Of a stretch of DNA of 45,926 nucleotides, positions 6,234 to 45,673 are shown in pieces. The DNA comes from Balneolaceae bacterium (GTDB lineage: Bacteria; Bacteroidota; Rhodothermia; Balneolales; Balneolaceae): contig JAEPQH010000023.1 of assembly GCA_017640605.1 (NCBI GenBank), positions 1 to 45,926 of the forward strand, in the 5' to 3' direction. Every line of letters starts with the position of its first letter. The stretch's first letter is position 1. The notes beneath the pieces were generated by a model. The model did no database searches and had not been told where the DNA came from. It saw nothing but the letters and a program-made list of their open reading frames with translations. Position numbers and translations under genes: made by a program.

Positions 6234-6768
6234 AACTAAGAATTTAGATTATAGGTTAGATTGAGAGGAGACAAGTAAGCTATGCGTGTAATCGCTTCCA
6301 TAAACACATCGTAGCGCTTCCATCGATGACTGAATTTTGATTACATAGATGACCATAGTGAGTTTTCCTGACTCCGGGAAAAAAATGTGCATACTTCAAG
6401 TAAATAGCAACCTGAAATAAATTCGTACATTTCTGGGAATTTTTCTCAAACCGTTTACTGAAAAATTGTTCTAAAATTATTCCGACAAAAATAGAACCGC
6501 GAAAGTTGCTACCATTTAACACTTCAGCATACTGCTCCGTGCAACAAATCGGAGTAATTTTAATTACTTGCACAAATTGGTATTGATATAATTTAATGGA
6601 CATTGCACCAGTCCTCACCCAAAAAATTTGGCAGTTATTTCAGTTATTCCAACCGAAATAAATTTCTCCGAATATAGATTGAGTAGCAATTAGACCAACA
6701 CTTTTGAGAAAATTTCCAAAATTAAAATCACTCTCATATATACTTGAAAGTAATTAGCTTACACTCGA
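6234..6768. other. Non-coding region upstream of susC
   Basis: This 535-bp AT-rich gap lies between the haloperoxidase-like gene and susC. A 112-codon open frame on the minus strand (6280-6618) has no family resemblance and covers the operator-like sites, so it is not called as a gene. A TAnnTTTG-type box (TATTTTTG on the minus strand, 6486-6493) is a possible promoter core, without a clear -33 partner. Two operator-like sites are listed separately. No terminator for the upstream gene was recognised. Confidence 0.5.
6287..6322 (-). promoter_or_regulatory. Two LacI-type (cre-like) operator candidates upstream of susC
   Basis: On the minus strand 6287-6300 reads TGGAAGCGATTACA. This fits the LacI/CcpA-type consensus TGWAANCGNTNWCA at all positions except the third and is an imperfect palindrome with a central CG. 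A second, weaker copy (TGGAAGCGCTACGA) lies at 6309-6322. Both share ATGGAAGCG, exactly 22 bp apart, or about two helical turns, as expected for a tandem operator on one DNA face. They lie 54-90 bp upstream of the susC start. No LacI gene is in the window, so the regulator is unknown. Confidence 0.45.
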
Positions 6769-8135: not shown

Positions 8136-11100
8136 CTATTTAGGCGGGTTGATGCTAAGTATAACGAGTTCTCCATCATTTTGCGATACCAAAACTCCCA
8201 TTCGACCCTCGCCGAGTTGTATAGGTTTAACATCTCGAATTTGCTTTCGTTGATATTCTCCCAACTCTTCGAAAGGCAGAGTTTTGAATGAAAAAACGGA
8301 ATCTGCATCCTGCAAAAGTACCGTTCCGTAGTTAGCGTCGTATTGGCCCAAAAACGGTCGTACTCCATAAAAATTTCCATTTATATATAGGTCTTTTGTT
8401 CCGTCGTTATTAAAATCGTGCGTAAGTGTGGAGTACATGGGCGCCATTTGTGCATCCATTGGAAGTTTATGGATTTTAAAATCTATTCCATCGGTGTTTT
8501 CAAGAAGTATACTTTCGAACATCACCGCTTTTTTCTGGATGGATGAATCCAATTTTGATGCCGAAAACCAATCCTGAACGGTAAAACCAGAAACAGCATC
8601 GTAACTGTTAAAATCTTTACGAAGTCCGGGAAGTTGCTCAAATAACTCATCTACTGATGCAAGGGGATATTCTTTCTCACCTTTAGTGTAAGATACGATA
8701 GGATCTGCTTTTTGATCGTCATTAAAATCGTTGAGATATAATTTCACCGGTTCATTTTCCGATGCTTGCAGATAGGAATTCAATCCCAAATTCCCAGCAA
8801 TGATATCCAAATCTCCATCACCATCTATATCGGAAAAATCCAGCGAATTCCACCATCCCTCTGTACCGCCCAAGCCAGCGACATCCGTGACTTCTTCGAA
8901 GATGGTACTAATAGTATCCGCGGAAGCTACGTCACTGAGAATATTCGAAAATACTTTGATTGGCATCCACTCCCCGGTTACTACTAAGTCCGCATCGCCA
9001 TCTTCATCGGCATCCAACCATCCTGCATCCGTAACCATCCCCACATTTCGGAGTTGAGGTGCAATGATGTCGGTTACATCCGTAAAATTTCCTCGACCAT
9101 CATTTTGGAGCAGAAAACTAACAGGATCTAATCCATACAGCCTAGGAACACTTAATCCTCCAATAAAAAGATCCTGATCTCCATCGTTATCGAAGTCGCC
9201 ATTGGTTACTACCGACGAGTTTGCATACATCGCCGGAAAAGTTTGGGAATACACAAAAGTTCCATCGCCGCGGTTCAAGTATAACCGATCGAGTAGCTCA
9301 CGAAACTGCCCAACTACTTGTCCGCCTCCGCTTGTTACCAATAAATCCGGAAATGCATCTCCATTTGCATCGAAAAAGAGAGCGTCGGTGTCTTCGTTAA
9401 ATCGATCCTCAAATAATTCAGGATTGTTTTTCTTTTTGAATGAGCCATCCTCAGTTTGCAACCAAATTTCTCCGGTCTGCAGGGCAGCATTTCCAATAAA
9501 GAAGTCTTCTAAACCGTCATTATTAACATCAGCAACTGCAATAGGCGGACCTAAGGTCGACAGTTTATGAGGAATCAACCGTTCATTATCGAAATCGAGA
9601 AACTCGTTCTCCGTGTGTTTGAAATTCACTCCCAACTGCCCTGTGATGTCTGAAAAAAGAGCTTTGGTATTGTTTTTATTGTGATAGGTGTACGAATCTC
9701 TGGCAAATGCCTGATCTAAATGAATGAGAGTATTGGCGCTTTTATTAGTTAAAAGCTGCGTGCGATCATCCGGCCAGATTACACGAATAGAATCAATCGT
9801 ATCAATTTCGCCTAAACCCAGATGTAAAACATGACTCATCGACGATTGAAAACCGCGCACCGGGGATTGCTCTAGTACAAACCGACTCTCCTGTGCATAC
9901 ACCCACACTTTTGCTCCAATTCCTGATGTATTTTCATCAACTCCCATCAAATGAAACTGCACATAATTTGAGCTTTGATCTTCTGAATTGGTATCGTTTC
10001 TGTAGATAAAAGCAGGTTGGTTTACATTATTCACGATCAAATCTAAATCGCCGTCGTTATCTAAATCGGAGTAAGTGGCACCATTAGAATAGCTCTCGTC
10101 GCCCAAGCCCCAATCGGAAGACCGATCGGTAAATGTTAAGTCGGTATTATTTTTGAAAACCGCGTTAGGGATTTTCAATTCAGGCATTCGCTGTACCAAC
10201 TTTAGGTTTTCCGGATCAACACCTTGCTGAAGCGAAAGCTGTACATCCGAACCGGAAATGTATTTAATGTAGTCCAGATCATTAGGTCGACGAAAAATTC
10301 CATTCGCGATGTAAAAATCACGAAATCCGTCGTTGTCAAGATCGGCCAGAAGTCCACTCCAGCTCCAGTCGGTGGCTTCAATACCTGCTAAATATCCAAT
10401 TTCGCTGAATAAGGGCATTCCTGAAGACGTAATTCCTTGATTAAGCTGCAGCATATTTCGCGAGTATTGCGGGTAGTATCCATAACTTTCCTTGATACGT
10501 GCAACCTGATAGGTATCGCCGCCCCCAGATTTTCGCAGGATTTCTTCCTCATAAGGCAACATATCGGTGGTAGCAATATCCTGTTTTCCATCATTGTTGA
10601 TGTCGGCAATATCCACACTCATCGTAAACTGACTGGTATGCTGAACCATTTCCCGAATCGACTCAGAGAACGTTCCATTTTGATTGTTGATGTACAGGTA
10701 ATCGTCTTCGTGAAAATCATTCGCCACATAAATATCCGGCCAGCCATCTTCATTGATGTCGCTAATAGTTACTCCCAGCCCAAAACCAAGAGCACTACTA
10801 AAAATGCCGGCTTCCTCACTAACATCAGTAAATACATCCCCATCATTGCGAAACAGTTTATCGCCGGATTTTGGATCGATGCGTTCGCGGGATTCAATAG
10901 GTGCATAACTATAAATCGAATGCACGGAATGATTCAGCAAAAACATATCGAGATCGCCATCTTTATCGTAATCGAAAAAAGCCGATTGAACTGAATATCC
11001 TTCAAAATCTAATCCAAAAGCCTCCGCTTGTTCAGAAAAAGTACCATCCTGATTATTGATAAAGAGCTGATTTTGTCCGGTTCTGCTCAGATAGTTTACA

Positions 11101-11498
11101 TTACTCACATAAATATCGAGCCAGCCATCGCCATTAACATCGGCCATAGAAACACCGGTGCTCCAACTTCCGGGTTGGTGAATGATACCCGCCGATTCTG
11201 TGGCATCATCGAATTGAAAATTGCCTGAATTTATGTACAGCTTATTCTCATTTTGATTGGAGGTAAAAAACAGATCATCCAGTCCATCATTATTGAGATC
11301 GCCCGCAGCTACTCCTCCACCATTATAGTAATACAGGTAGTTTAAAAAGTTGAAGGTGGTGTCTTCGACCAGCGTATTTTCAAAATCGACACCAGATTTC
11401 GAAGCTGATATTCTTTCGAATCGGGTATTTTTGGAACATGCGGAGAGCAATAACAGCAAGGCTGCTCCAAATACCGGCAGCATCTTGTATTTATGCAT
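8136..11498 (-). CDS. CRTAC1-like FG-GAP/ASPIC-UnbV repeat lipoprotein
   Basis: The product is a 1120-residue surface lipoprotein. The chosen start (ATG at 11498) gives a clean signal, MHKYKMLPVFGAALLLLLSAC; an upstream in-frame start would put 21 unrelated residues before it. Two blocks of FG-GAP/VCBS repeats with calcium-loop motifs (DLNNDGLDDLFF, DYDKDGDLDMFL, DLDNDGDLDLIV, later DFDNDGDQDLFI and DIDGDGDLDIIA) flank an ASPIC/UnbV-like segment near the middle (IGAKVWVY..., RVIWPDDRTQLL). Such proteins form integrin-like propellers and are thought to bind glycans or matrix; no catalytic site was seen. The partial gene at 1-1575 is a paralogue. It lies in an operon between the DUF3078 protein and the haloperoxidase-like lipoprotein, suggesting surface assembly with both. 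Its exact substrate is unknown. Confidence 0.88.
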   Translation of the reverse strand: MHKYKMLPVFGAALLLLLSACSKNTRFERISASKSGVDFENTLVEDTTFNFLNYLYYYNGGGVAAGDLNNDGLDDLFFTSNQNENKLYINSGNFQFDDATESAGIIHQPGSWSTGVSMADVNGDGWLDIYVSNVNYLSRTGQNQLFINNQDGTFSEQAEAFGLDFEGYSVQSAFFDYDKDGDLDMFLLNHSVHSIYSYAPIESRERIDPKSGDKLFRNDGDVFTDVSEEAGIFSSALGFGLGVTISDINEDGWPDIYVANDFHEDDYLYINNQNGTFSESIREMVQHTSQFTMSVDIADINNDGKQDIATTDMLPYEEEILRKSGGGDTYQVARIKESYGYYPQYSRNMLQLNQGITSSGMPLFSEIGYLAGIEATDWSWSGLLADLDNDGFRDFYIANGIFRRPNDLDYIKYISGSDVQLSLQQGVDPENLKLVQRMPELKIPNAVFKNNTDLTFTDRSSDWGLGDESYSNGATYSDLDNDGDLDLIVNNVNQPAFIYRNDTNSEDQSSNYVQFHLMGVDENTSGIGAKVWVYAQESRFVLEQSPVRGFQSSMSHVLHLGLGEIDTIDSIRVIWPDDRTQLLTNKSANTLIHLDQAFARDSYTYHNKNNTKALFSDITGQLGVNFKHTENEFLDFDNERLIPHKLSTLGPPIAVADVNNDGLEDFFIGNAALQTGEIWLQTEDGSFKKKNNPELFEDRFNEDTDALFFDANGDAFPDLLVTSGGGQVVGQFRELLDRLYLNRGDGTFVYSQTFPAMYANSSVVTNGDFDNDGDQDLFIGGLSVPRLYGLDPVSFLLQNDGRGNFTDVTDIIAPQLRNVGMVTDAGWLDADEDGDADLVVTGEWMPIKVFSNILSDVASADTISTIFEEVTDVAGLGGTEGWWNSLDFSDIDGDGDLDIIAGNLGLNSYLQASENEPVKLYLNDFNDDQKADPIVSYTKGEKEYPLASVDELFEQLPGLRKDFNSYDAVSGFTVQDWFSASKLDSSIQKKAVMFESILLENTDGIDFKIHKLPMDAQMAPMYSTLTHDFNNDGTKDLYINGNFYGVRPFLGQYDANYGTVLLQDADSVFSFKTLPFEELGEYQRKQIRDVKPIQLGEGRMGVLVSQNDGELVILSINPPK

Positions 11499-11574
11499 AG
11501 AAGCGAGTTTAAAAGTGTTGGCTGTCTGAAATTCGATGTTAAAAATAGGAATTGACAGCAATAAAAGAAGCGAT

Positions 11575-12561
11575 CTACAACAGTTTAATAATCAAACCAA
11601 CAGCGATGGTTTGCCTCATTTGCAGTTTGGATGTCACATCATCGTCGTACATCAGCTCAAATTGTAAAATGGTAGACAAAAAACTGTTTAGCTTACCGGA
11701 TAAAGCGTTTCTGAAAATAACGTCTGTCCGCCGAACGGGCAGTAATAAATTAGTAAAGGTGCTTAATTCGGTAGTGTAATTGAATGTTTTCGCGAAGGAT
11801 TTGTCCCAGTTTATTGAAATGGTGAAACCACCCTCGGAACGCATATTATCACCTTCATCTACCCCATAATATTGCCCAAGACTATCTACGCTTACAAAGG
11901 TTTGTTTTAAACCTAAACCGGTTTGCACCGAGAAATAATCGTCCGGTTGATACGATAGACCGATCGATTCGGTGAGATATCCGGGAGCCATGAAATCGGA
12001 AACTACTTGCTCGTTATCCTCATCGAAGCCATCAACAAATTGAGTTCTAAAGTCTATCTCGGCAAATGTACTTAGTTGATAGGAACCCAGAAAGTAATCC
12101 AGTTTATATCTCAGGTTGATCAAATCCGCTGTTTTCTTTGATCCTTCGCCATCCAGCCAAGTTTGACCATACTGCAAATTTACCCGAAAAGTGTTCGAGA
12201 ACGAGCCTCCTGAGTATTTAAACCGAGCCAGTGTGGATGCAGAGGTTGCAATCGTATTTACCCCTCCCTGACTCCAATTACGATAACTCGCCTGATTTCC
12301 ATTAATGTTTAGATTCCAAGATTTTGTCCAGGGATTGGGTTTTTGTTCATCTTCGGTTGAATCCACTTCTACAGAAATAGTGACCGGCTTTTCAAACTTA
12401 TCAGATTGTTTGTCTAGTATTTCACGTACTTCTTTCTCGCCCGGGGTAGTTTTTTGGAAAGCACGCACGTTTTGTGAAAACAGTGCCTGAGTGAGAATAA
12501 TTGATAAAAAAACCGAAATGTATCGAATAGCAGGTGTGCAAATCCTTCTATCTGAAGTCAT
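11575..12561 (-). CDS. DUF3078-type outer-membrane beta-barrel protein
   Basis: This 328-residue exported protein has a signal peptide ending near VRAFQ (about residues 10-35), a short charged linker, then alternating amphipathic strands with aromatic girdles. The WSLNINGNQASYRNWSQGG-like opening (here WNLNINGNQASYRNWSQGG) is the hallmark I associate with DUF3078. The barrel runs to the C-terminus (AVGLIIKLL), which ends in a hydrophobic residue rather than Phe. The family has no established function. It is the first gene of the DUF3078/FG-GAP/haloperoxidase group and is transcribed away from the GH13 gene, so the shared 311-bp gap should hold both promoters. The first residues (MTSDRRICTPAIRY) precede the hydrophobic core, and a later start is possible. 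Confidence 0.75.
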   Translation of the reverse strand: MTSDRRICTPAIRYISVFLSIILTQALFSQNVRAFQKTTPGEKEVREILDKQSDKFEKPVTISVEVDSTEDEQKPNPWTKSWNLNINGNQASYRNWSQGGVNTIATSASTLARFKYSGGSFSNTFRVNLQYGQTWLDGEGSKKTADLINLRYKLDYFLGSYQLSTFAEIDFRTQFVDGFDEDNEQVVSDFMAPGYLTESIGLSYQPDDYFSVQTGLGLKQTFVSVDSLGQYYGVDEGDNMRSEGGFTISINWDKSFAKTFNYTTELSTFTNLLLPVRRTDVIFRNALSGKLNSFLSTILQFELMYDDDVTSKLQMRQTIAVGLIIKLL

Positions 12562-12670
12562 GTAATAAGTCTGTAGAAATTGCCCTTTTTTGAACTCTCA
12601 AATATAAGGTGCTCAGCAGTTAAATGTTGCCATACAATGTGTTAATTGATGTACATTCACCTCACCCTGC

Positions 12671-12807
12671 TCTCTCTCGAGGAGAGGGTTTTCGTTTTCT
12701 AAATTGGTAACTAGGTTCGTTTCTCTATTAGTTATAGAAATAGTATCAATTAAGTTCAGAAATGGTGTTTTAAGCTCAGACATAGTCCCCTCTCCTTCTA
12801 GAGAGAT
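12671..12807. repeat. Small element with about 19-bp terminal inverted repeats
   Basis: TCTCTCTCGAGGAGAGGG at 12671-12688 is mirrored by CCCTCTCCTTCTAGAGAGAT at 12788-12807. As inverted repeats these differ at only a few positions, and each arm can also fold on itself (CTCTC...GAGAG). The 100 bp between them is AT-rich and non-coding. The layout resembles a MITE or a dispersed intergenic palindrome. It lies between the divergent DUF3078 and GH13 genes, so it may affect their promoters. Confidence 0.5.
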
Positions 12808-12872
12808 CTTTTTTATACATGCAATTTTCATAAATAGTGTATACCCTTCGCCGAACATTCAAAATTTCACTC

Positions 12873-14786
12873 ATGAATAAATCACTCGTCCTCATTCTGA
12901 TTAGTGCTACGCTCGTTTTATCCTGTGCTACAAACGACGCCGAAAAGCTCACACAAACCGCCTTCGATGAACCACCGGAATGGAGTAAAGAAGCCATTTG
13001 GTATCAGATATTTGTGGAACGATTTAGAAATGGGGATCCAACGAATGATCCTCGTCCGCAGGACATCGTGGGTTCTTATCCGGGCACTGTACCGGATGGC
13101 TGGCATACTACACCATGGACACACGATTGGTATGCACCGGATCCTTATTGGGATGAACTTGAGGACGTAACTGATTTCTTTGGCAATGAACTTTCCTCGT
13201 TCGGACAAAAAGCACAACTCCGCCGATATGGTGGCGATTTACAAGGAGTACTCGACAAGCTAGATTATCTGGAATCGTTGGGAGTTACCGCCATTTATTT
13301 TAATCCATTAAACGATGCCCCTTCGTTACACAAATTTGATGCTCGTAACTGGCATCACATCGATCGGAATTTCGGTCCTGATCCCGATGGCGATGCTGCG
13401 TTGATGGCTACTGAAAATCCGGTTGATCCTGCAACTTGGCAATGGACCAGTGCAGATAAAATGTTTCTCAATCTGATTAAAGAGTTGCATCAAAGAGATA
13501 TGAAATTGATCCTCGATTTCAGTTGGAATCATACCGGTATTGAGTTTTGGGCATGGAAAGATATTCTGAAAAATCAGCAAGAAAGTGAATTCAAGGATTG
13601 GTATTTCATCGATGAATTTGACGATCCTAACACCGAAGAAAATGAATTTTCTTACCGTGGATGGGTGGGCGTTTTTACTTTGCCTGAAATCAAAGAAACC
13701 TACCGAGTAGATCACAGCGATGGTATTCACATTTTCGATGCTGATATATATTCCCAACAAGTAAAACAGCATATTTTCGATGTCTCGCAACGCTGGCTTG
13801 ATCCTAATGGTGATGGAGATCCCAGTGATGGAGTGGACGGATTTCGGTTGGATGTTGCCGCTGAAGTAGGACTTACTTTTTGGAGAGATTACAGAGAATT
13901 TGTTAGAAGCATTAATCCTGATGCCTATTTGTTAGGCGAATTATGGTGGCAAAAATATCCGGATAATTTACTCGACCCCGAACCCATGTTACGCGGCGAT
14001 GTGTTTGACGCTCCCATGAATTATCGCTGGTACCGAGCTACCCGACATTTCTTTAATCAATCGCCGGATAAAATATCGGTCAGCGAATATGTGGATAGTC
14101 TACGATCATTTCAGGCGAATATTCGAGAAGTGAATAATTACGCGATGATGAACATGACGGCTAGTCATGACACTCCACGGTTTGGAACCTCCATCTACAA
14201 TAAGAATAAATACATGTTTCAGCCAAAACCGGATGATAACCCGGAATACAAAATTGATAAGCCGGATGAAGAAACCTATCAAACCATGAAGCTGATTCTT
14301 ACTCAACAATATACCTATGTGGGTGCTCCGCAAATATGGAATGGCGACGAAATGGGCATGTGGGGAGCAAATGATCCTTCAACACGAAAACCACTCATCT
14401 GGAAAGACTATACCTTTGAAAATGAAACTACTCACCCTCTCGGTAAAAATCGCCCGGAAAATGAAGTGCGTTTTAATGATGATTGGTTTGGGTTTATGCA
14501 ACAAATTATTGCAATGAGAAAGAACAACCCTGTGCTATCTCACGGTGAGCTGGAATATTTAATTGTGGATGATGCTCGCGAAGTTTTGGCATACTCAAGA
14601 TATAATGACGACCAGGAAATCATCACCATTTTTAATGCAAGTGAAAACCCTGTTACGGTTGAAGTTCCGGCAAGAGTTTCTTCGATGTATAAGACATTAA
14701 TGTATGAATCTACTTTTACTCAAACGGATAACATGATAGAAGTAGAATTACCGGCCAGATCAGCTGCCGTTTTATCATCGAAATAA
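12873..14786 (+). CDS. GH13 alpha-amylase-family lipoprotein
   Basis: This 637-residue alpha-glucan hydrolase starts at ATG 12873, which gives a proper lipoprotein signal (MNKSLVLILISATLVLSC, Cys18); a frame start 36 bp upstream would add a charged, non-signal leader. The GH13 catalytic barrel is complete: AIWYQIFVERF near the N-terminus, DFSWNHTG (region I), DGFRLDV with the nucleophile Asp327, GELWW with the acid/base Glu356, and ASHDTPR with Asp433. A C-terminal beta-sandwich domain follows. Layout and size resemble periplasmic neopullulanase/cyclomaltodextrinase-type enzymes acting on maltodextrins. It is convergent with the LuxR-type gene, whose end is 11 bp away. Being alpha-specific, it does not fit the beta-glucan operon; it may serve the susCD block. 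Confidence 0.9.
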   Translation: MNKSLVLILISATLVLSCATNDAEKLTQTAFDEPPEWSKEAIWYQIFVERFRNGDPTNDPRPQDIVGSYPGTVPDGWHTTPWTHDWYAPDPYWDELEDVTDFFGNELSSFGQKAQLRRYGGDLQGVLDKLDYLESLGVTAIYFNPLNDAPSLHKFDARNWHHIDRNFGPDPDGDAALMATENPVDPATWQWTSADKMFLNLIKELHQRDMKLILDFSWNHTGIEFWAWKDILKNQQESEFKDWYFIDEFDDPNTEENEFSYRGWVGVFTLPEIKETYRVDHSDGIHIFDADIYSQQVKQHIFDVSQRWLDPNGDGDPSDGVDGFRLDVAAEVGLTFWRDYREFVRSINPDAYLLGELWWQKYPDNLLDPEPMLRGDVFDAPMNYRWYRATRHFFNQSPDKISVSEYVDSLRSFQANIREVNNYAMMNMTASHDTPRFGTSIYNKNKYMFQPKPDDNPEYKIDKPDEETYQTMKLILTQQYTYVGAPQIWNGDEMGMWGANDPSTRKPLIWKDYTFENETTHPLGKNRPENEVRFNDDWFGFMQQIIAMRKNNPVLSHGELEYLIVDDAREVLAYSRYNDDQEIITIFNASENPVTVEVPARVSSMYKTLMYESTFTQTDNMIEVELPARSAAVLSSK

Positions 14787-14797
14787 AAAAATCGTGA

Positions 14798-15439
14798 TTA
14801 TTTGGAGGCTAGAAATCCGTGAAGATCATCGGTGGATGAAAGACCTAATTTTTTTCGTAATCTTGACCTACTGATGTAAACACTCGATGGTTTTATGTTA
14901 AGTAGATTTGCAATTTCTTTGGCGGACATCCCTATTTTGATGTAAGCACAGAGGCGCAAATCATTTTGAGTTAATTCTGAAAATTCTTCTTTAAGATTGG
15001 TATAAAAGCGTTTATTCAGTTCGTCTAGTTGCAGTTCAAACGAAACCTCATTTCCTTGATTGATCGCTTCAATTTCAGCAAGTATATCTTTAGTTAGTCG
15101 GGAAACACTATTCGGATTTTTTTGAATATGCTGAATGGATTTTCTGATGGATTCCAGAGCTTCCGCTTTCTCGTCGTTCTCTTTGGCAAGTTTTGCCATT
15201 TCAATGGTTTTCGACTTTAACTCAGCTTTAACGTGGTCCACTTCTTGTTGAAGCAAAGCCAATTTGGTTTTTGAATTATCTACAGTTTTTTTGGTGGATT
15301 GCTCATTATTCCCAACGCCTGATCTAAATCCAAGTATCAATTGTTTGATGGCTCTGAACTGCCACGCTATTATAAGTACAATTAAAAGCGAGCCAATGGA
15401 GAAGAAAATAAGTATGGATTCAGCGGTACTAAGTCCCAT
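14798..15439 (-). CDS. Membrane-tethered LuxR-type HTH regulator
   Basis: This 213-residue protein has one N-terminal transmembrane helix (about 8-27, ILIFFSIGSLLIVLIIAW), a long coiled coil (about 55-110), then a C-terminal LuxR/GerE-type helix-turn-helix (about 150-210). Key residues are LTQNDLRLCAYIKIGMSAKE and KPSSVYISRSRLRKKLGL, as seen at the C-termini of large Bacteroidota TPR or Y_Y_Y-sensor regulators. Here no periplasmic sensor or TPR array is left; only anchor, coiled coil and DNA-binding part remain. It lies directly downstream of the glucan operon on the same strand, but a terminator at 15482-15511 separates them. It may regulate the operon, which is inference from position only. 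The input signal is unknown. Confidence 0.8.
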   Translation of the reverse strand: MGLSTAESILIFFSIGSLLIVLIIAWQFRAIKQLILGFRSGVGNNEQSTKKTVDNSKTKLALLQQEVDHVKAELKSKTIEMAKLAKENDEKAEALESIRKSIQHIQKNPNSVSRLTKDILAEIEAINQGNEVSFELQLDELNKRFYTNLKEEFSELTQNDLRLCAYIKIGMSAKEIANLLNIKPSSVYISRSRLRKKLGLSSTDDLHGFLASK

Positions 15440-15481
15440 TATAAACGTTGGTTATTGCTTTAATTAAAACTACATAATTAC

Positions 15482-15511
15482 AAAAAAAGCCGGACTAAAA
15501 CAGCCCGGCTT
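15482..15511 (-). terminator. Rho-independent terminator at the end of the glucan operon
   Basis: On the minus strand AAGCCGG and CCGGCTT form a perfect 7-bp stem around an 11-nt loop, followed by a T run. It begins 17 nt after the stop of the T9SS-tailed protein and separates that gene from the LuxR-type gene. Confidence 0.8.
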
Positions 15512-15527
15512 ACTATTTGACAAAATC

Positions 15528-16904
15528 TTATTTGATTAAGGTCATTTTCTTGATGCTGGTTGTTGCACCTGCAGTCAATTTATAAACATAAACGCCTGAT
15601 GCCAGATTCGCTGCATTAAACGAAACCGTATATGAACCTGCGCTTTGCACACCGTTTACCAAGCTACTTACCTTTTGCCCTTGCAGGTTATATACCTCCA
15701 AAGTCACTTTTCCGGTTTGAGGAACCGAATAGGAAATATTGGTAGATGGGTTAAAAGGATTTGGATAATTTTGCTCTAAACTAAACCCATTAGGTATTTC
15801 GGCAATCTCATTGCTGGTAGCATTTGCATCATAAAAGTAAAGATTATCGATGAATGCGGTAACACTTCCTTCCGGTAAGGCGCTGAAAATGTATTGTGCC
15901 ATATTGGTGGTATTAGTCAAACCGGTGAAATCGGCTAATGGTAAATCGTAGCTAATCCATTCGCTTTGTGCCGGACTTTCCCAAATGAGTTCATGCTCAG
16001 AATCATCTCCTTGTCCATCTCCACCTTCGCCACTAAAACCGCCTGTAGGACCAAAATCAACGAGTTTGAATCGGAACGTAGTAGCATCCGGAGTCCACAA
16101 ATCGAAATGCACGTGCGTCATTTCACTCACATCAACCGGACTTGCTACGGTTTCGATACCCACAAAATTGAGATCAGAATATTTTTTTGTGGCGTTTCCA
16201 TCTACCATAACGTCTGCGAATGTGGCCATCGACCAACCGGTTTGCCAAGTATCTACGCTAACATCGGTGTAGGCATCACTGAATAGCGAGATTACATTAG
16301 CTTCATCAACTGTTGGTGTTGGAGCAGCTTCCGCTGGTGATAGTCCACCACTGCTTAAATCACCGAAAGTCACATTATCAAAATAGATTACATTTTCTTC
16401 ACTTCTTTCTGTGAAATCCGGGAAGATGGTTAGTTTTGCAAAAGCTCCACCTTCACTTTCTGGGGGATTGTTTTTATTCGAGAAATCGAAGGTTAATTCC
16501 TCCCACTGATTCGTAACTGTATTGGCTACTTTTATTTCGCCTTCCGACCAACCGCCGGCAGCTTCCAATTTAATTCCGACATCAGAAATGGTTGTTTTCC
16601 AAACCATGATTTTGATGGTTCGGTTATTATCGTTTAACGTAAAGTTCCCGATACCATCCGTGGTAACACCGGCAAAAGTTGCACCGTCAACGCGTGCAGT
16701 AAATTTAGCGACTTTTGCAGAAGTGTTTGGTTCGGATTGATCAGGGTTATCAATAATTTCTAGAGCTGGATTATCGGTATTTTCAAATACTTCCCAGGTC
16801 CAAGAGGCACCGTTTCCGTCGGCCTCAAAATTAACCGGACTGTTTTGTGCTACAGCTGCAGAACTAAAAAATAATACAGCTATTAGTAATTTTGTAAGTT
16901 TCAT
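15528..16904 (-). CDS. Secreted two-module carbohydrate-binding protein with T9SS sorting domain
   Basis: This 458-residue exported protein has a signal peptide (1-20, ending AVAQN), two beta-sandwich modules and a type IX secretion sorting domain. Module 1 (about 22-180) ends in YFDNVTFGDL and resembles CBM4/11-like domains. Module 2 (about 195-365) carries PTVDEANVISLFSDAYTDV and MTHVHFDLW, and is the same kind of module found twice in the lipoprotein at 28455-30986. The tail (about 375-458) has QNYPNPFNPSTNISY and a closing Gly-Val-Tyr-Val-Tyr-Lys strand, typical of T9SS cargo. No catalytic motif is visible, so it is read as a released or surface-bound beta-glucan-binding protein. It is the last gene of the operon, 92 bp after the GH17 gene, and is followed by a terminator. 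Confidence 0.85.
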   Translation of the reverse strand: MKLTKLLIAVLFFSSAAVAQNSPVNFEADGNGASWTWEVFENTDNPALEIIDNPDQSEPNTSAKVAKFTARVDGATFAGVTTDGIGNFTLNDNNRTIKIMVWKTTISDVGIKLEAAGGWSEGEIKVANTVTNQWEELTFDFSNKNNPPESEGGAFAKLTIFPDFTERSEENVIYFDNVTFGDLSSGGLSPAEAAPTPTVDEANVISLFSDAYTDVSVDTWQTGWSMATFADVMVDGNATKKYSDLNFVGIETVASPVDVSEMTHVHFDLWTPDATTFRFKLVDFGPTGGFSGEGGDGQGDDSEHELIWESPAQSEWISYDLPLADFTGLTNTTNMAQYIFSALPEGSVTAFIDNLYFYDANATSNEIAEIPNGFSLEQNYPNPFNPSTNISYSVPQTGKVTLEVYNLQGQKVSSLVNGVQSAGSYTVSFNAANLASGVYVYKLTAGATTSIKKMTLIK

Positions 16905-16996
16905 TATAAATAATGGTTTAAATGATTGATTGTAGCGAGTTTATTGAGTGAGTTCTCCCAGACTTTTTTTAAGGTTTAATAACTAAAAAGCTATTT

Positions 16997-17971
16997 CTAA
17001 AAATGAGTTCTTTGTGTGGAATAATTCGGGTTCACTGCAAGTTTGGGAGTACGATCAGCGCGGTAAAGTCCCCAGTGTTTTTCGGGCTCCCAGCGATCGG
17101 GCGAACCTTTCCAGTTTTCATCAAATGCTTCAAAATAAAAGGTAAGAATGCCGTTTTTTTCCGTCCATTCCATTAACTCTTCGAAATATATTTTTTGAAA
17201 ACCTTCGTTTACATTATCAGCTTCAATCCCTCTTCCATTCGATTTTGTTGCCCAACCCGCTTCGGTAATCACCACCGTTTTATCCGGAAATTTTTCTGCA
17301 ACCGAATAGTAATTTTGCTTGGTATATGCCAAACCCTCTGAAATATTTTTGTATTCCCAAACAGGGTAGCTGTGTATCGATATAAAATCCAGATACTCTG
17401 CTAAGTTGGAAAGTTTATGTAGCCATGGCACATAGTTTTCACAAAATGTAACTAGCTGTTTTGTATTAGCTTTAACTTTCTTTGAATAAGCTAACACATT
17501 TTTCTCCGGAACGTAGTGGTCTGTCCAATCCACGCAAGCCTCGTTACCGATCGAGAGAGAGAAAATGATATCCTCGTAGGTATTTCCAAGTTCAATGAGT
17601 GCATCAATTTTACGGCGATTGATTTCCTTGTTGGCTTCCAGCTCATCTTCGTCGTAAACACCGCCTCCCCAAGGACAATTAAAATTATTCACTTCTGCGC
17701 CAATGTCGGCACCAAGCATAATTTTGAAATCGAGTTGTTCTTTGCGAATCACCTCCAACACGGTATGCGCATGAGTACTGGAATCATACAGGCGTAGATA
17801 TTTCCACTCATCCTGCAAAATCAGTAAGTCCTCTTTTACCTGATCGTAGGTTGGATATTCTCCACCCGGGTATTGTCCATCTCTAAATCCGGAATAACAA
17901 ATTGCTTTACCTGGTTGCAGTCCTAATTGTTCAAAAGTATTCAAAGTCCTAGTATTTGAGTTTATTTTCAC
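16997..17971 (-). CDS. GH17 glycoside hydrolase, no signal peptide (start uncertain)
   Basis: This GH17 enzyme of about 324 residues is predicted to cut beta-1,3-glucan oligosaccharides. With the GTG start at 17971, the acid/base is Glu144 in SIGNEA and the nucleophile Glu237 in VITEAGWA, with IRLYD/HSYP-type barrel motifs around them (here LRLYDSS and SIHSYPVW). The start is unclear. An ATG at 18031 would overlap the upstream GH17 gene by more than 80 bp and add residues that look like read-through of the other frame. GTG 17971 or TTG 17944 are better, and the TTG lies just after the upstream stop. No secretion signal is seen, so it should be cytoplasmic. It is more like the GH17 lipoprotein at 22759-24057 (GNEA...TE(A/T)GWAT, YFEAFDE(N/Q)WK) than the two GH17 domains next to it. 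Confidence 0.88.
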   Translation of the reverse strand: MKINSNTRTLNTFEQLGLQPGKAICYSGFRDGQYPGGEYPTYDQVKEDLLILQDEWKYLRLYDSSTHAHTVLEVIRKEQLDFKIMLGADIGAEVNNFNCPWGGGVYDEDELEANKEINRRKIDALIELGNTYEDIIFSLSIGNEACVDWTDHYVPEKNVLAYSKKVKANTKQLVTFCENYVPWLHKLSNLAEYLDFISIHSYPVWEYKNISEGLAYTKQNYYSVAEKFPDKTVVITEAGWATKSNGRGIEADNVNEGFQKIYFEELMEWTEKNGILTFYFEAFDENWKGSPDRWEPEKHWGLYRADRTPKLAVNPNYSTQRTHF

Positions 17972-18854
17972 TGTCCCAGATACCCCAATAAGCTCCAACT
18001 TCCCCTTCGTCGCTTTTTTTCCATGCCTCATCAAAAGAGGAGAAATACATTATTTCTATCCCTTCGTCTTGTGCCCATAAATTGGCGTTAATAAAGTATT
18101 TCATGGCATTTTCTTCTGATGGAATCGCACCACCAAGTCCTTCTCCCTGGCTAGGCCATCCCGTTTCGGTAATGATAATTCGCTTACCATTCGCAGCAGC
18201 TTTGGCTTGATAAAACATTTGCCGCATGTGATTCAATGAATCCTGAAACGAGGTTCCCTCCCAATACGGGTAGCAGTTACAAAGCACTACATCGCAAGTT
18301 TCTGCCAATTCCGGATGCACGCTGAACTCGTAATAAGCATCTACATAGCCAACCGGTATATCGGGAATTTCTGCTTTCACTCGTTTGATATATTCGAGTA
18401 GTTGCTCGAGCGTTAGATCATTACGATACAGTACTTCATTTCCGACAGCGGCAACATCAACCATGCCTTTTTTAGCAAGTTCAATCAGCCCTTCAATTTC
18501 GGTCTCGTTTTTTTCTTCGTCGCTTCCCAGCCATGCACCAACCATGGTTTTTAAACCCAATTCTTTGGCTACTTCGGGCACCAATTCGTTGCCTTCGGTG
18601 GTAGAAAAAGAACGAATCCATTCACAATGATCATCAAGAATTTGCATTCTTCGCATAATCTGCGGTTTTGGAATGATATCTCCCGGCTCCTGTCCTTCTT
18701 CATACAAACTGAAGCAGAATCCATGAATTCCCTCGGTCAAAATCTCATGGAAAAGAGCATTGGTATCTTTTTGATCCAGCCCCTCGAGGTAATCAACTTT
18801 CGAGAGTAATGAGGATTTCTCGAAGCTTAGAAATTTTTCCTTTCTGTACGACAT
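17949..18854 (-). CDS. Cytoplasmic GH17 glycoside hydrolase
   Basis: This 301-residue single-domain GH17 has no signal peptide. The acid/base is Glu140 (AAVGNEV) and the nucleophile Glu230 (IITETGWP), exactly 90 residues apart. Other family landmarks are WIRSFST, CYPYWEG and YFSSFDEAWK. It aligns without gaps to the GH17 half of the neighbouring transporter fusion; I count about 100 identities over 190 positions, so the pair arose by duplication. It starts 2 bp after the fusion gene ends, in the same operon. The expected substrate is short beta-1,3-gluco-oligosaccharides already in the cytoplasm, working alongside the GH149-like phosphorylase. Whether it is an endo-, exo- or transglycosylating enzyme cannot be read from the sequence. 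Confidence 0.92.
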   Translation of the reverse strand: MSYRKEKFLSFEKSSLLSKVDYLEGLDQKDTNALFHEILTEGIHGFCFSLYEEGQEPGDIIPKPQIMRRMQILDDHCEWIRSFSTTEGNELVPEVAKELGLKTMVGAWLGSDEEKNETEIEGLIELAKKGMVDVAAVGNEVLYRNDLTLEQLLEYIKRVKAEIPDIPVGYVDAYYEFSVHPELAETCDVVLCNCYPYWEGTSFQDSLNHMRQMFYQAKAAANGKRIIITETGWPSQGEGLGGAIPSEENAMKYFINANLWAQDEGIEIMYFSSFDEAWKKSDEGEVGAYWGIWDSENKLKY

Positions 18855-34757: not shown

Positions 34758-34790
34758 AAAAAAAAAGGCCTCCACATTCATGAAGACCTT
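34758..34790 (-). terminator. Rho-independent terminator of the mini-flagellin gene
   Basis: On the minus strand AAGGTCTT pairs with GAGGCCTT (8 bp including wobbles) around a 10-nt loop, followed by an unbroken run of T. It lies 26 nt after the stop codon, so the mini-flagellin gene is a one-gene transcript. Confidence 0.75.
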
Positions 34791-34815: not shown

Positions 34816-35208
34816 TCATACCATTTTAAGTGCGTTTCCAATTTCGATGTTGGCTTGGGCAAACATGGCGGTAGTGCTTTCTTGTAATATTTTTTGCCGA
34901 ATCATTTCTGATTGAGCTTTGGCCATGTCGGTGTCAATAATTTGGCTGTTCGCCGACGATAACGATTTGATAGAAGCGGCATTGAACTCTTCCTCTCGAT
35001 CGGATTGGGCTAACATGGAATCTGCTTCCAAAGCCGCAATTTGTCCTTTCGATTTAATAGAACTCACATAGGTTGCAGCGGCATCTTCCGCTTTGTTTAC
35101 CTTTTCGCCCGAAGATAATTTTTCACCGGTATCAACAATGTTATTGTTGATTCGGTGTAGTGTAAGCATGTTGTTCCGGATACCCGGATAATCACCAATG
35201 TTCGACAT
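34816..35208 (-). CDS. Miniature flagellin-like protein (130 residues)
   Basis: The product keeps both ends of flagellin with almost nothing between. The N-terminal part has NNMLTLHRINNNI and GEKLSSGEKVNKAEDAAA, matching the RLSSG-x-x-I-N-x-A-x-D-D-A-A block of D0/D1. The C-terminal part has NSQIIDTDMAKAQSEM, IRQKILQESTTAMFAQAN and GNALKMV, matching the S-x-I-x-D-x-D-x-A...Q-x-x-Q-Q-x-x-x-A-M-L-A-Q-A-N end of flagellins. Ordinary flagellins have 250 residues or more, so the D2/D3 and most of D1 are absent. ATG 35208 is chosen because a frame start at 35253 lies inside the promoter candidate. It is a single-gene unit with its own terminator and a sigma-28-like promoter; no other flagellar gene is near. 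Filament formation is inferred, not shown. Confidence 0.8.
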   Translation of the reverse strand: MSNIGDYPGIRNNMLTLHRINNNIVDTGEKLSSGEKVNKAEDAAATYVSSIKSKGQIAALEADSMLAQSDREEEFNAASIKSLSSANSQIIDTDMAKAQSEMIRQKILQESTTAMFAQANIEIGNALKMV

Positions 35209-35242
35209 AACTATAAAATTTATACTCTTTGACCTATTCGGG

Positions 35243-35269
35243 GTATCGACCACTTCGATTATTTCTTAA
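35243..35269 (-). promoter_or_regulatory. Sigma-28 (flagellar) type promoter candidate
   Basis: On the minus strand TTAAGAAA, 11 nt, then GTCGATAC. The flagellar sigma-28 pattern is TAAAGTTT-N11-GCCGATAA; the -10 block agrees at six of eight positions, the -35 block at four of eight, and the spacing is exact. A start site near 35235 would leave a leader of about 28 nt before the mini-flagellin ATG. Confidence 0.45.
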
Positions 35270-35388
35270 GCCCTTTTTTTATTTTTTTTGAAATTATTTC
35301 ACAAATAAGCCAAAACAGTGACAATCGGAATGATTTAATTGTATTTATCGCTTTGGATAGGACTGTAATCTTTAAAAAAACTTTGCGA

Positions 35389-36861
35389 ATGGCACAAAAT
35401 GACGAGTTAAGAAATCACATGGATCAATCAAAGAGTGGAGCTCCTGCTGCAGGTGAAGCCATTCGTGACATGTTTTCTACTGATGAAATCTTTCATCGCA
35501 TAGTTGCCACCGCTGACGAAGACTTTAGCCGTTCTACTCGTTTACTTTTCCTTAGCGGAATTGCAGCGGGACTTTCCATTGGACTATCATTCGTGGCTCG
35601 AGCTGCACTATCCGGCGCGGTTCCTAATGATACATCCGGTTTAATCGGAAACCTACTATATCCGCTTGGTTTTATTCTGATTGTAGGTGGAAAATATCAG
35701 CTGTTTACCGAAAATACGCTTACGCCTGTAACTCATATTCTAACTCGTATAGCAAGCATACCCGACTTATTGCGTATTTGGGGAAGTGTTCTCGTAGCCA
35801 ATGTTCTAGGCGCCGGTGCTTTAGCTTTTGTGCTAGCCAAAACCAATATTTTAACTCCGGAAGCGGCCAATGCGGCTCGGGAATTTGGCAAACATGCTTT
35901 GGAAATCGCCTGGAACGACCTTTTCTGGAAAGGAGTGCTTGCAGGTTGGATTGTAGCCTCTATGGTTTGGTTAACCCATGCTGCACGCGACTCTACCACT
36001 CGTTTTCTCACCGTTTTTGCCTTGATGTACCTTATCCCTTCTGCCGATCTTTTTCACTGTATCATCGGTGCATGTGAAGTATTGTACATGATCTTTCAAG
36101 GATTAGCCAGCTGGACAGAATTTGGATACTTCATGTCGGCCGTTACGCTCGGTAATACTGTGGGCGGTGTATTGTTGGTTGCCATTTTAAACTATTCACA
36201 AACACGACAAGAACGCTTTCCGGATCGGGATTGCGGTCAGCTGGAATTGAGCTGGAGTGAGTGGATGTTTGGCCGAACAAGTAAACTAGCTTCAGCACTT
36301 TCGCCGGATAGTGAATTAGAAAGCACAATGGATAAGGAAGATTTCAGTCTTGAAAAGCGGGAATATGATCACATTCTTGGCAACAGAAAGGCTCCGATTA
36401 CGGTGATACAGTACGGCGATTACGAATGTCCTACCAGCGCAGATATTTATCGATCTGTTCGCGAACTGATGGAGCAAAAGGATGATGACATTCAATTTAT
36501 ATTTCGCCATTTACCGTTGAGCCGAAGGCATCCAAATGCGATTAACGCGGCCATTGCAGCTGAAATCGCTAACGAAGAGAATAAGTTTTGGGAGATGCAT
36601 GATGAACTATTCGAAAATCAGGAAACCTTGCAGGATATAAATCTTGAGCAATTTGCTAGAAATGTCGGCTTAGATGTGGAAAATTTTTCGGAAAAGCTAA
36701 ACAGCCAATTCAACATCGAACGAATAAAATCTGATCGAATTACCGGAATCCGGAATGGGATCACTTCCACCAATAATATTATCATCAATGGGGAAATCAT
36801 AGAAAATGAATTTGATGTTCGAAAAGTTGAAAAACGAATAAATGCAATCTTGTCAGAGTAA
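35389..36861 (+). CDS. Formate/nitrite-transporter-family channel fused to a DsbA-like thioredoxin domain
   Basis: This is a 490-residue fusion. ATG 35389 is preferred over a TTG at 35353. Residues about 23-270 form the six-helix FNT channel; LIVGGKYQLFTENTLTPV and LFHCIIGACEV hold the typical FNT loop and the central pore His223. A linker with an acidic stretch (about 295-320) leads to a DsbA/Thioredoxin_4-like domain (about 325-490): ILGNRKAPITVIQYGDYECP has the usual beta-strand and Cys347. The active site reads C-P-T-S, so the second cysteine is missing, and a normal dithiol oxidase cycle is unlikely. FNT proteins pass formate, nitrite or similar monoacids. The FNT C-terminus is cytoplasmic, so the thioredoxin part would be too. 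A similar fusion is known to me in some bacteria, but its role is not. Confidence 0.88.
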   Translation: MAQNDELRNHMDQSKSGAPAAGEAIRDMFSTDEIFHRIVATADEDFSRSTRLLFLSGIAAGLSIGLSFVARAALSGAVPNDTSGLIGNLLYPLGFILIVGGKYQLFTENTLTPVTHILTRIASIPDLLRIWGSVLVANVLGAGALAFVLAKTNILTPEAANAAREFGKHALEIAWNDLFWKGVLAGWIVASMVWLTHAARDSTTRFLTVFALMYLIPSADLFHCIIGACEVLYMIFQGLASWTEFGYFMSAVTLGNTVGGVLLVAILNYSQTRQERFPDRDCGQLELSWSEWMFGRTSKLASALSPDSELESTMDKEDFSLEKREYDHILGNRKAPITVIQYGDYECPTSADIYRSVRELMEQKDDDIQFIFRHLPLSRRHPNAINAAIAAEIANEENKFWEMHDELFENQETLQDINLEQFARNVGLDVENFSEKLNSQFNIERIKSDRITGIRNGITSTNNIIINGEIIENEFDVRKVEKRINAILSE

Positions 36862-42838: not shown

Positions 42839-43891
42839 TTACTCAGGTGTTTGATCCGATAGAAAATCGATGGCAAACTCCAGCACTTTATCTCTTCGGT
42901 TTACGATATCCATCCTGCTATTTTGGACATAAATATCCGGGGCAATTCCTATTCCTTCCAGGCTCTTTCCGTCAGGCATCAGATATTTCATGGTAGAATA
43001 TTCGTACGTCCAGCCATTGGGTAGGAAGCGAGCCGGGCCAACATCGGAGTGCGCACCGGACGTGGTATCCCCAATATGAGTTACTTGTTCAAATGCTTTC
43101 ATATTGAGAGTAAAAATCTCAGCTGCACTGATCGTTAATGCATCGGTTAAAAGAACAACCGGTTTGGTATAGTTTTCTGGTTTTGATGCGTAGGAATACA
43201 CACTAAGTGGTGCGTCGAAATCACCATAATTTGGACCATTTCTGGTTTGAACGGTATACAAGAAATGTTCGCCATCGGAAAAAGCTTGAGCAAAGCCCGC
43301 TGAATACTCATCCTGTCCCCCAATATTATTTCTAACATCAACAATGATGGCATCCACATCACCAAGTTCTCGCAACGATTGATAAATCACTGAAGGATTC
43401 ACACCAAGCATCGCTATTGAATGAATGTATCCGATATTATGATCATAAAGCTTGCCATAGCTATAAAAATCAGCTTTTTGGTAGAGCGCTTCTACGTAAT
43501 CGCTCGCGATCAACTCAATGCTGAATTCGTCAAGTGCATGTAAATTTTTGTTGGCACCGGATGCAAATTCTATGTAGTTATCAGGATCATCAGATGGGAT
43601 TCTCATTTTCACATGTTCATCATCCAAATGCTGTAACATTCCAGTGATTATCTCCCACAATTCGTCGTCGGTTGTGTTAGAAGTTACCATCGGTCGATAT
43701 ACGGTGTACAGCGAATCCCAGTCAATATTTTTGACCTCGAATAGCGCGTAATGCTTGTCAAAATCAGTCCAAACCAATTCAAATATATGTTCCGGATTAT
43801 TGGCTTCGTCTGAGCCCAAAATTGTTTTTTCGCAACCAATCGAAAAAGTGAATATTCCTAAAAGTATCAGAATTAAATTGAATTTTTTCAT
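42839..43891 (-). CDS. S41-family (TSPc-like) peptidase lipoprotein
   Basis: This 350-residue lipoprotein (FSIGCEK, Cys20) has an N-terminal helical domain and a C-terminal tail-specific protease core: VDAIIVDVRNNIGGQDE is the core strand and TISAAEIF carries the likely catalytic serine. No PDZ domain is present. The region after it, GDTTSGAHSDVGPARF, lacks the lysine of the usual Ctp Ser-Lys pair, so catalysis might resemble the tricorn/IRBP branch. HLDDEHVKM is a common motif of these short Bacteroidota proteins. It would process or degrade periplasmic or surface proteins. It starts 4 bp after the barrel protein gene stop. Confidence 0.85.
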   Translation of the reverse strand: MKKFNLILILLGIFTFSIGCEKTILGSDEANNPEHIFELVWTDFDKHYALFEVKNIDWDSLYTVYRPMVTSNTTDDELWEIITGMLQHLDDEHVKMRIPSDDPDNYIEFASGANKNLHALDEFSIELIASDYVEALYQKADFYSYGKLYDHNIGYIHSIAMLGVNPSVIYQSLRELGDVDAIIVDVRNNIGGQDEYSAGFAQAFSDGEHFLYTVQTRNGPNYGDFDAPLSVYSYASKPENYTKPVVLLTDALTISAAEIFTLNMKAFEQVTHIGDTTSGAHSDVGPARFLPNGWTYEYSTMKYLMPDGKSLEGIGIAPDIYVQNSRMDIVNRRDKVLEFAIDFLSDQTPE

Positions 43892-43895
43892 AGTG

Positions 43896-44684
43896 TTAGA
43901 ATTTGAATGATGTTGCGATTAAAAAACGTCCTTGAAAGTTGGTAATGGGTTGATACACAGAACTTTTTAAATATTCGATCTCGTAACCCAAGCGAATGTC
44001 TAGCTTTCCGATAAGCGGGCGGGAAATAGACGCTGCCACCGACGGATTTAAAAAATTATGAATAGCTCCAAAGTCTCCGTTCTTATAAATGAATGCGAAA
44101 AGTTGTTCATCATTCATCGTTTTGGTGAACTGATTGTAGGGAGAACGATATACTTTCCCGATCACCGGTAATTTGACTCTTAAATCGACCGCATTTTTTT
44201 TAAAAGCATGTGATGCCAGCGCTTGTAAGCCTATCCCACGGTGAGAAACATACGTTCCGGAACTGCTTAGCGTGTACTCATCTTCGTATGTGATCAGATT
44301 GCCGTTTGAATGAAAATCCACACCAAGAAAAATACTCGTGTTGCGGAAGTCTGTGGAATTCAAACGAAACAAATACGCGGCTTCCATATTCAGCTTAACT
44401 AAATCAGACCCAAATTGATCGCTTACGTTTGTGCTCATCTCTAGGGTTTGTAAATCGACGGAAAGCAAAAACACATGATCACGTTTCGTATTTCTTGAGT
44501 AATGTAAGCTTAGGGTTCCGCCCGAGCTTTTGTAGTTTAAGGGTGAAAATACTTCGTCTTTTATCAGCCCATTTGCACTGCCAAATGCAAACTCTAACTC
44601 ATTGTTCTTGTGTTGCGCCATCACATCTATGCTTAGCAAAAGCAAAAGACAAGAAATCAGAGTAGTTTTTAAACAATGATTCAT
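43896..44684 (-). CDS. Outer-membrane beta-barrel protein of unknown function
   Basis: This 262-residue protein has a signal peptide (about 1-23, SIDVMAQ) and then regular amphipathic strands separated by short polar turns, ending in a terminal phenylalanine (LIATSFKF), the usual insertion signal for outer-membrane barrels. About 10-12 strands fit the length. No named family was recognised. Its gene is 3 bp after the NAD(P)-binding protein gene and 4 bp before the S41 peptidase gene, so the three are very likely one transcript. Confidence 0.75.
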   Translation of the reverse strand: MNHCLKTTLISCLLLLLSIDVMAQHKNNELEFAFGSANGLIKDEVFSPLNYKSSGGTLSLHYSRNTKRDHVFLLSVDLQTLEMSTNVSDQFGSDLVKLNMEAAYLFRLNSTDFRNTSIFLGVDFHSNGNLITYEDEYTLSSSGTYVSHRGIGLQALASHAFKKNAVDLRVKLPVIGKVYRSPYNQFTKTMNDEQLFAFIYKNGDFGAIHNFLNPSVAASISRPLIGKLDIRLGYEIEYLKSSVYQPITNFQGRFLIATSFKF

Positions 44685-44687
44685 GAT

Positions 44688-45551
44688 TTAATGGTTTAGA
44701 TGATTTTTAACTTCCTGTTTATAGTATTCTTGTAATCTTCGGCTTCCGTATCTGGGAGCTACTGCGTCGGTTGCAATTAGGGTGAGGAAAAACTCAATGG
44801 GTCCGAAGATTTTCTCGTCAAGTACGCGCCGGCTGACTTTTAATGCGAAGGTTCGGATCCAGTCCGGTAGATGCGTAATTCGTGGTGTATGATTCCATGC
44901 TGAAAGTGCCATTTCGGCAATTTCATTCTGGGTTAACACATCGGGTCCGCCTACTTCTATTTCTTTAACTGATTGGGCAATAGCTTGTACGATTACCTCG
45001 GCAAGATCGGAGCCATGAATTGGATTTAGCTTGTATTCGCCATCACCGAACATGTAAACGCGACCTCTTTTTGCCATAAATAGGATCTCATTCAAATCAG
45101 AAAAAAAGCCGTTTGGACGAACAATGGTGTATTCCAAGCCACTTTGTTTGAGTACATCAACAAAGCGCTCTTTGGCTTTAAATATTTGAAGATGTCGATG
45201 CCGTTCTCCACCAATAGCCGATACATAAATGAATTTTTTCACCCCTGCTCTTGAAGCTTCCGCTAACAGATTCATATTGGCTTGGTAATCTACATCCATA
45301 TAGGTTAATCCATCGCGTTGGCGGGTTATTCCGATGGTAGATATTACGGTGGATACTCCCTCAAAAAGTCCTGCTAAGGATTCCGGATCCGTAACTTCCG
45401 CTTTAGCTACTTTGAGTTCATTCCATGCAAAAGCATGAAGTTTGTTGGGATTGCGAGCGAGTGCGGTTGTTGGAATTCGCCAACTCTCTAGTTCTTTTAG
45501 TATGTGTTTGCCTAAATATCCGGTTGCGCCGGCCAGTAGTACGTGTGTCAT
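44688..45551 (-). CDS. NAD(P)-binding NmrA/SDR-type protein
   Basis: This 287-residue cytoplasmic protein is of the atypical short-chain dehydrogenase (NmrA/complex-I 39-kDa-like) group. The N-terminal Rossmann motif is GATGYLGKHI (about 8-17), with STIGITRQRDG and KFIYVSAIGG next, and YTIVRPNGFF in the substrate part. The Tyr-x-x-x-Lys active site of classical SDRs is not obvious. ATG 45551 is chosen because it directly precedes the first beta-strand (MTHVLLAGATG); an upstream TTG would add nine residues. It is the first gene of a three-gene minus-strand unit. Substrate is unknown. Confidence 0.85.
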   Translation of the reverse strand: MTHVLLAGATGYLGKHILKELESWRIPTTALARNPNKLHAFAWNELKVAKAEVTDPESLAGLFEGVSTVISTIGITRQRDGLTYMDVDYQANMNLLAEASRAGVKKFIYVSAIGGERHRHLQIFKAKERFVDVLKQSGLEYTIVRPNGFFSDLNEILFMAKRGRVYMFGDGEYKLNPIHGSDLAEVIVQAIAQSVKEIEVGGPDVLTQNEIAEMALSAWNHTPRITHLPDWIRTFALKVSRRVLDEKIFGPIEFFLTLIATDAVAPRYGSRRLQEYYKQEVKNHLNH

Positions 45552-45673
45552 TGTGCATTGGGTTAATTTCTGCACCAAAGTTCTGAACTACTGTTTTCTA
45601 AATCGTCCGAGGTTATGATTTCGGCGTTGTATATGAGATTTCGGACTTTTTAATGAGATGTATCAAATTGCTT

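Follow-up and report, generated by a model that had tools for sequence, protein, structure and literature searches.

The 45,926-nucleotide stretch of Balneolaceae DNA analysed here (the window) appears to encode a new, reduced variant of flagellin, a protein of 130 residues that we call the mini-flagellin. It may well be a functional, genus-specific and co-regulated flagellin paralogue that is exported by the flagellar apparatus, either as a minor subunit or as a secreted protein. The gene occupies positions 34816–35208 of the minus strand, with an ATG start codon at 35206–35208 and a stop codon at 34816–34818. The GTG start of a longer, 145-aa version of the reading frame falls inside the promoter. 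The product has less than half the size of a usual flagellin. The original prediction of a 130-residue miniature flagellin devoid of the exposed middle is borne out by the reading frame, the Pfam matches and the alignment, which also show that most of the D1 domain is gone.

Flagellin-like sequence is found in residues 1 to ~66 and in the last ~54 residues. The N-terminal block (residues 1–65, positions 35014–35208, minus strand) spans D0 and reaches into the first D1 helix, and the C-terminal block (residues 77–130, 34819–34980, minus strand) the end of D1 and the C-terminal D0. An alignment with the six full-length flagellins of the same genome (316–318 aa) shows that the N-terminal helix is still there in the mini-flagellin, together with the loop around NKAED and the beginning of the first D1 helix; a linker of about 20 residues follows, and then the stretch from the DTD..AK..S....QIL helix to the end. 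Short stretches excepted, it has no counterpart to residues ~70 to ~265 of the 317-aa flagellins. The D1 remnant amounts to roughly 20 residues on the N-terminal side and some on the C-terminal side, given the domain limits of Salmonella flagellin. Identity to the six flagellins is 23–26 of 62 residues in the N-terminal block and 23–25 of 54 in the C-terminal block. The best relatives of solved structure are Bacillus flagellins, and because the matches cover only residues 12–67 and 250–301 of 304, about 180 central residues are missing. By its sequence, the protein seems to have been cut down to two terminal helices, that is, D0 and the first turns of D1. An AlphaFold model displays three helices (residues 8–32, 37–90 and 94–128) at low confidence (pLDDT 63.8, pTM 0.21); it was built from a two-sequence alignment, and no structural support is drawn from it.

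Both terminal flagellin motifs had been described as kept. The C-terminal block exceeds the cut-off of its Pfam family (Flagellin_C, PF00700, residues 78–121, 29.8 bits against 23), whereas the N-terminal block falls below (Flagellin_N, PF00669, 21.4 bits, E 2.7e-4, against 26.6). The N-terminal D0 is six residues shorter than in the full-length flagellins of this genome, and the PQ tail motif, which all 40 full-length relatives compared possess, is absent from the mini-flagellin and from its orthologue described below. These 40 flagellins have 61 columns with conservation of 95% or more; 33 of them are retained in both mini-flagellins and 28 are changed, including the PQ, V and F of the tail. 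Such changes would count against simple co-assembly with the full-length proteins.

Compared with FliC/Hag flagellins (Flagellin_N plus Flagellin_C), the mini-flagellin has both terminal blocks, their order and the key motifs, but differs in its missing central residues and PQ tail and in its sub-threshold Flagellin_N match. As D1, the outer-tube domain, is largely missing, we class it as a flagellin paralogue and not as a canonical filament flagellin. The flagellin of Bacillus cereus, described as the smallest, consists of D0 and D1 only; like the mini-flagellin it naturally lacks D2 and D3, but it keeps the whole of D1 (PMC5895748). Campylobacter jejuni FlaC appears to be nearest in kind. 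FlaC leaves the cell through the flagellum without becoming part of the filament (PMC5466977). Both are flagellin paralogues reduced in the exposed part and found alongside full-length flagellins in the same genome; FlaC, however, keeps D0 and D1 and lacks mainly D2–D3 (PMC5466977), whereas the mini-flagellin also lacks most of D1. The mini-flagellin is the smaller of the two; we do not claim that they belong to one family, and secretion of the mini-flagellin is proposed by analogy. A full-text literature search, with most subscription papers outside its scope, returned no description of a natural D0-only flagellin, of a natural flagellin without D1, or of the flagellins of Balneolaceae.

Another species of the genus, Balneolaceae bacterium HXMU1420-13 (genome G032, contig C9, record JAEPNO010000018.1), has an orthologue of exactly 130 residues. 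The two proteins are 84% identical, and their genes align without indels over 390 nucleotides. Third positions account for 63 of the 87 nucleotide differences, and the YN00 method gives a dN of 0.11 and a dS of 1.33 (dN/dS about 0.08). Nine neighbour or mini-flagellin pairs were analysed in this way, and values were obtained for two only, the other seven being saturated, as were some flagellin pairs; the second computable pair is that of a 792-aa transporter (dN 0.06, dS 1.5). Eleven of the 21 amino acid differences lie in residues 63–82, within the linker (residues 63–83, positions 34960–35022, minus strand), which is the most variable part of the protein. Variation is confined mainly to this linker between the helices, as expected for a surface-facing turn that is free to vary. 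The flanks of the gene are altered between the species: its neighbour in the window, the transporter gene at 35353–36861, is missing from the corresponding place in G032. Retained are the promoter, the leader in its first half and a terminator structure. Judging from these comparisons, the mini-flagellin gene is a functional gene conserved under purifying selection. The view that it forms a working single-gene unit and not a relic is therefore upheld, and the homologue, being of equal length, is not a decayed full-length flagellin.

The gene is preceded by a promoter of the sigma-28 type, judged against the sigma-28 consensus (TTAAG-N15-TCGATA, 35244–35269, minus strand). The predicted sigma-28-like promoter is corroborated by the same layout, TTAAG-N15-YCGATA, upstream of five of the six full-length flagellin genes on contig C33 (numbers 1, 2, 3, 4 and 6) and at the same place before the orthologue; in flagellin gene 5 the spacer is longer by one base. 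The motif also stands upstream of an flhB-flhA-flhF-flhG-sigma cluster (C21:78071-78096) and of a CheY-like gene, where flhA and the sigma factor gene were identified by Pfam and flhB, flhF, flhG and cheY were named by eye. With up to one mismatch allowed, the window contains 3 matches against 2.16 expected, which is not above chance window-wide; genome-wide counts are 14 against 9 in the reversed control for the source genome (G000) and 15 against 5 for G032. The position of the match does exceed chance, the expectation being about 1e-4 per 100 nucleotides on one strand (9 control matches in 7.5 Mb, both strands). As control matches are common, a match to the motif proves nothing by itself, and the promoter call rests on its position and conservation.

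The 5′ untranslated region (35209–35243, minus strand) extends over the 35 nucleotides between the end of the −10-like box and the ATG. Just after the promoter it contains a 17-nucleotide block, GAATAGGTCAAAGAGTA (35226–35242, minus strand), that is identical in the orthologue despite the saturation of synonymous sites. This block is unlike the leaders of the other flagellin genes and is a possible leader signal. The leader lacks the GGTGA ribosome site that five of the six flagellin genes have, and expression may therefore be low. Downstream of the gene, the predicted terminator was located as an 11-bp stem followed by a T run (34765–34790, minus strand); the orthologue has a different sequence there, which also folds.

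The source genome encodes a flagellum. Pfam identified FlhA (868.8 bits), FlgK, FlgL, FlgN, FliD and FliS, as well as a sigma factor containing regions 2, 3 and 4 in a flagellar operon on contig C21, and flgF-, flgG-, flgH-, flgI- and flgJ-like genes were recognised by eye. The genes for flagellar export and for the sigma factor, whose absence would have spoken against the original prediction, are thus present. The six full-length flagellin genes are near-identical and arranged in tandem (G000:C33:115000-134999, positions 10887–17944 of that segment); at the corresponding site the second species carries five. FlhA is found in all three members of the genus (G000, G032 and G033). FliW and CsrA form a known sensor pair for flagellin levels. 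Neither was found in the same three genomes (0 of 3 each; the controls gave signals in 2 and 3 of 14), and since FlhA is present in all three, flagellin supply must be controlled otherwise.

The mini-flagellin has so far been found in one genus only, where two genomes carry it. The protein matches 34 of 92 genomes of the family at E ≤1e-3, and among the matches listed, genomes other than G000 and G032 match only through ordinary flagellins or fragments. At E ≤1e-9, 2 of 128 genomes of the order match. A two-sequence profile matches 14 of 394 sampled genomes of the phylum at 1e-8, with only G000 and G032 matching over residues 1–130 in a short frame. No further mini-flagellin was found in either set. 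A contig scan beyond the phylum, which speaks for close relatives only, yielded 35 stretches, of which one, the known orthologue, was confirmed. Two short frames were rejected as mini-flagellins: that of G037 (117 aa) is a frameshifted full-length copy and that of G022 (112 aa) is truncated where its contig stops. The frames of G060 (77 aa) and G091 (78 aa) have coordinates that place their starts less than 60 bases from a contig end; two others, in G088 (106 aa, matching at the N-terminus only) and G062 (44 aa), lay outside the inspection. G033, in which a contig ends about where the gene would begin, was counted neither way; no flagellin is among the matches listed for it. Regarding a mobile origin, IMG/VR contained no phage relative (26 stretches matched the pattern, none was confirmed) and the plasmid collection no plasmid relative, although the latter search returned no ordinary flagellin either and speaks for close relatives only. 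In a tree of 43 rows and 130 shared columns, with FlgL as the outgroup, the two mini-flagellins group together (support 100). The pair is nested among Balneolaceae flagellins, away from FlgL, and its stem measures about 2 changes per site; the exact sister is unsure. On this evidence the mini-flagellin is an old paralogue that diverged fast and has been conserved since.

Combining these findings, we propose that the flagellar late sigma factor, presumably that of the C21 operon reading the promoter described above, transcribes the gene along with the six full-length flagellin genes and that the flagellin-type N-terminus takes the product out through the flagellum. It could then take up occasional places as a D0-only subunit, whether at the junction of hook and filament, at the distal end, or as a soft spot with a gap in the outer D1 tube; or it could be released into the medium like FlaC. 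We lean slightly towards release, given the divergence of the C-terminal tail of the D0 core.

A D0-only flagellin might instead build a distinct structure, either a thin tube resembling a needle or a D0-only ring or tip devoted to initiating, terminating or interrupting the filament, which we regard as rather unlikely; were it so, the inner tube of the flagellum could exist without D1. Polymerisation of the mini-flagellin alone into a thin tube is more doubtful still. The needles of type III secretion systems are built of short helical hairpins, and the paired terminal helices and the alpha-helical make-up suggested by the low-confidence model would be consistent with a similar tube, but a separate filament is unneeded where six full-length flagellins share the promoter layout, and the mini-flagellin has lost the D0 tail motif and six D0 residues. 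For these reasons, and because some of D1 is kept, the earlier suggestion of a filament composed entirely of D0-like helices is not supported. It is very improbable that the protein is a hook-filament adaptor of the FlgL kind: the D0/D1 plan is common to FlgL and there is a weak match to TIGR02550 (17.3 bits against a cut-off of 127.2), but only 11 of 62 and 11 of 54 residues are identical to the FlgL of this genome, against 23–26 and 23–25 for its flagellins, and that FlgL is of normal length (297 aa) and already encoded. The tree and the identity counts led us to reject an origin from FlgL. Least probable of all is a recent deletion derivative or decaying copy without function, to which the long stem and the lower similarity to other flagellins might point; the low dN/dS at saturated synonymous sites, the equal length and the promoter and start kept in two species oppose it, and in its simple form the relic is refuted by the comparison with the orthologue.

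A cytoplasmic role has more in its favour, though we consider it unlikely: the mini-flagellin would stay inside the cell and compete with the full-length flagellins for the FliS chaperone or the export gate, thereby tuning supply. FliS is present, FliW and CsrA were not found in the three genomes of the genus, and residues 84–120, in the C-terminal block, match a flagellin peptide solved together with FliS (1ory_B, E 0.043). There is also a precedent in Helicobacter pylori HP1076, a small flagellin-like protein that competes for FliS (PMC7248283). Like the mini-flagellin, HP1076 is small, helical and narrowly distributed, and it is linked to FliS; however, it is D1-like and RpoN-dependent, and its deletion had no flagellar phenotype (PMC7248283), whereas the mini-flagellin is D0-like and has a sigma-28-type promoter. 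Furthermore, a FliS decoy would not need the conserved N-terminal block that is retained here. In C. jejuni, FliS binding needs the last ten residues of flagellin (PMC5466977); the mini-flagellin has diverged just there, and FliS may therefore not serve it. If the role is nevertheless cytoplasmic, it would be a new way of tuning flagellin export in a lineage whose three searched genomes yielded neither FliW nor CsrA. If, as we propose, the mini-flagellin is exported, and if it is assembled, no smaller natural flagellin would be known to us, and it would test directly whether D0 by itself fits the flagellar lattice or carries a protein through the export channel.

The mini-flagellin gene stands alone in the window. 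The statement that no flagellar gene is near holds for the 24 other open reading frames scanned with Pfam (those at 42839–45578 and a 112-aa one at 6280 lay outside the scan), while the flagellum is encoded elsewhere in the genome. On one side are SusC/SusD-like, GH16, GH17 and GH30 genes, and on the other, genes for a formate/nitrite transporter, a YdjM-like protein, a cyclase domain protein and a pyruvate-kinase-like protein. Positions 1644–34152, with the SusC/SusD-like and glycoside hydrolase genes, appear to form a region for the use of beta-glucan of the laminarin type, much of which is common to G032. Two overlapping reading frames in different frames at 16997–18854 (minus strand) both match GH17 and are perhaps one frameshifted gene. 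Elsewhere, the sigma-28-like motif lies just before an nqrA-like gene (named by eye) in both species (G000:C29:50859-50884 and G032:C48:15336-15361), as if this sodium pump, a sodium-pumping NADH dehydrogenase, were tied to the flagellar regulon. It also precedes dehydrogenase-like and ParA-like genes (by eye) in both species, through either chance or membership of the regulon.
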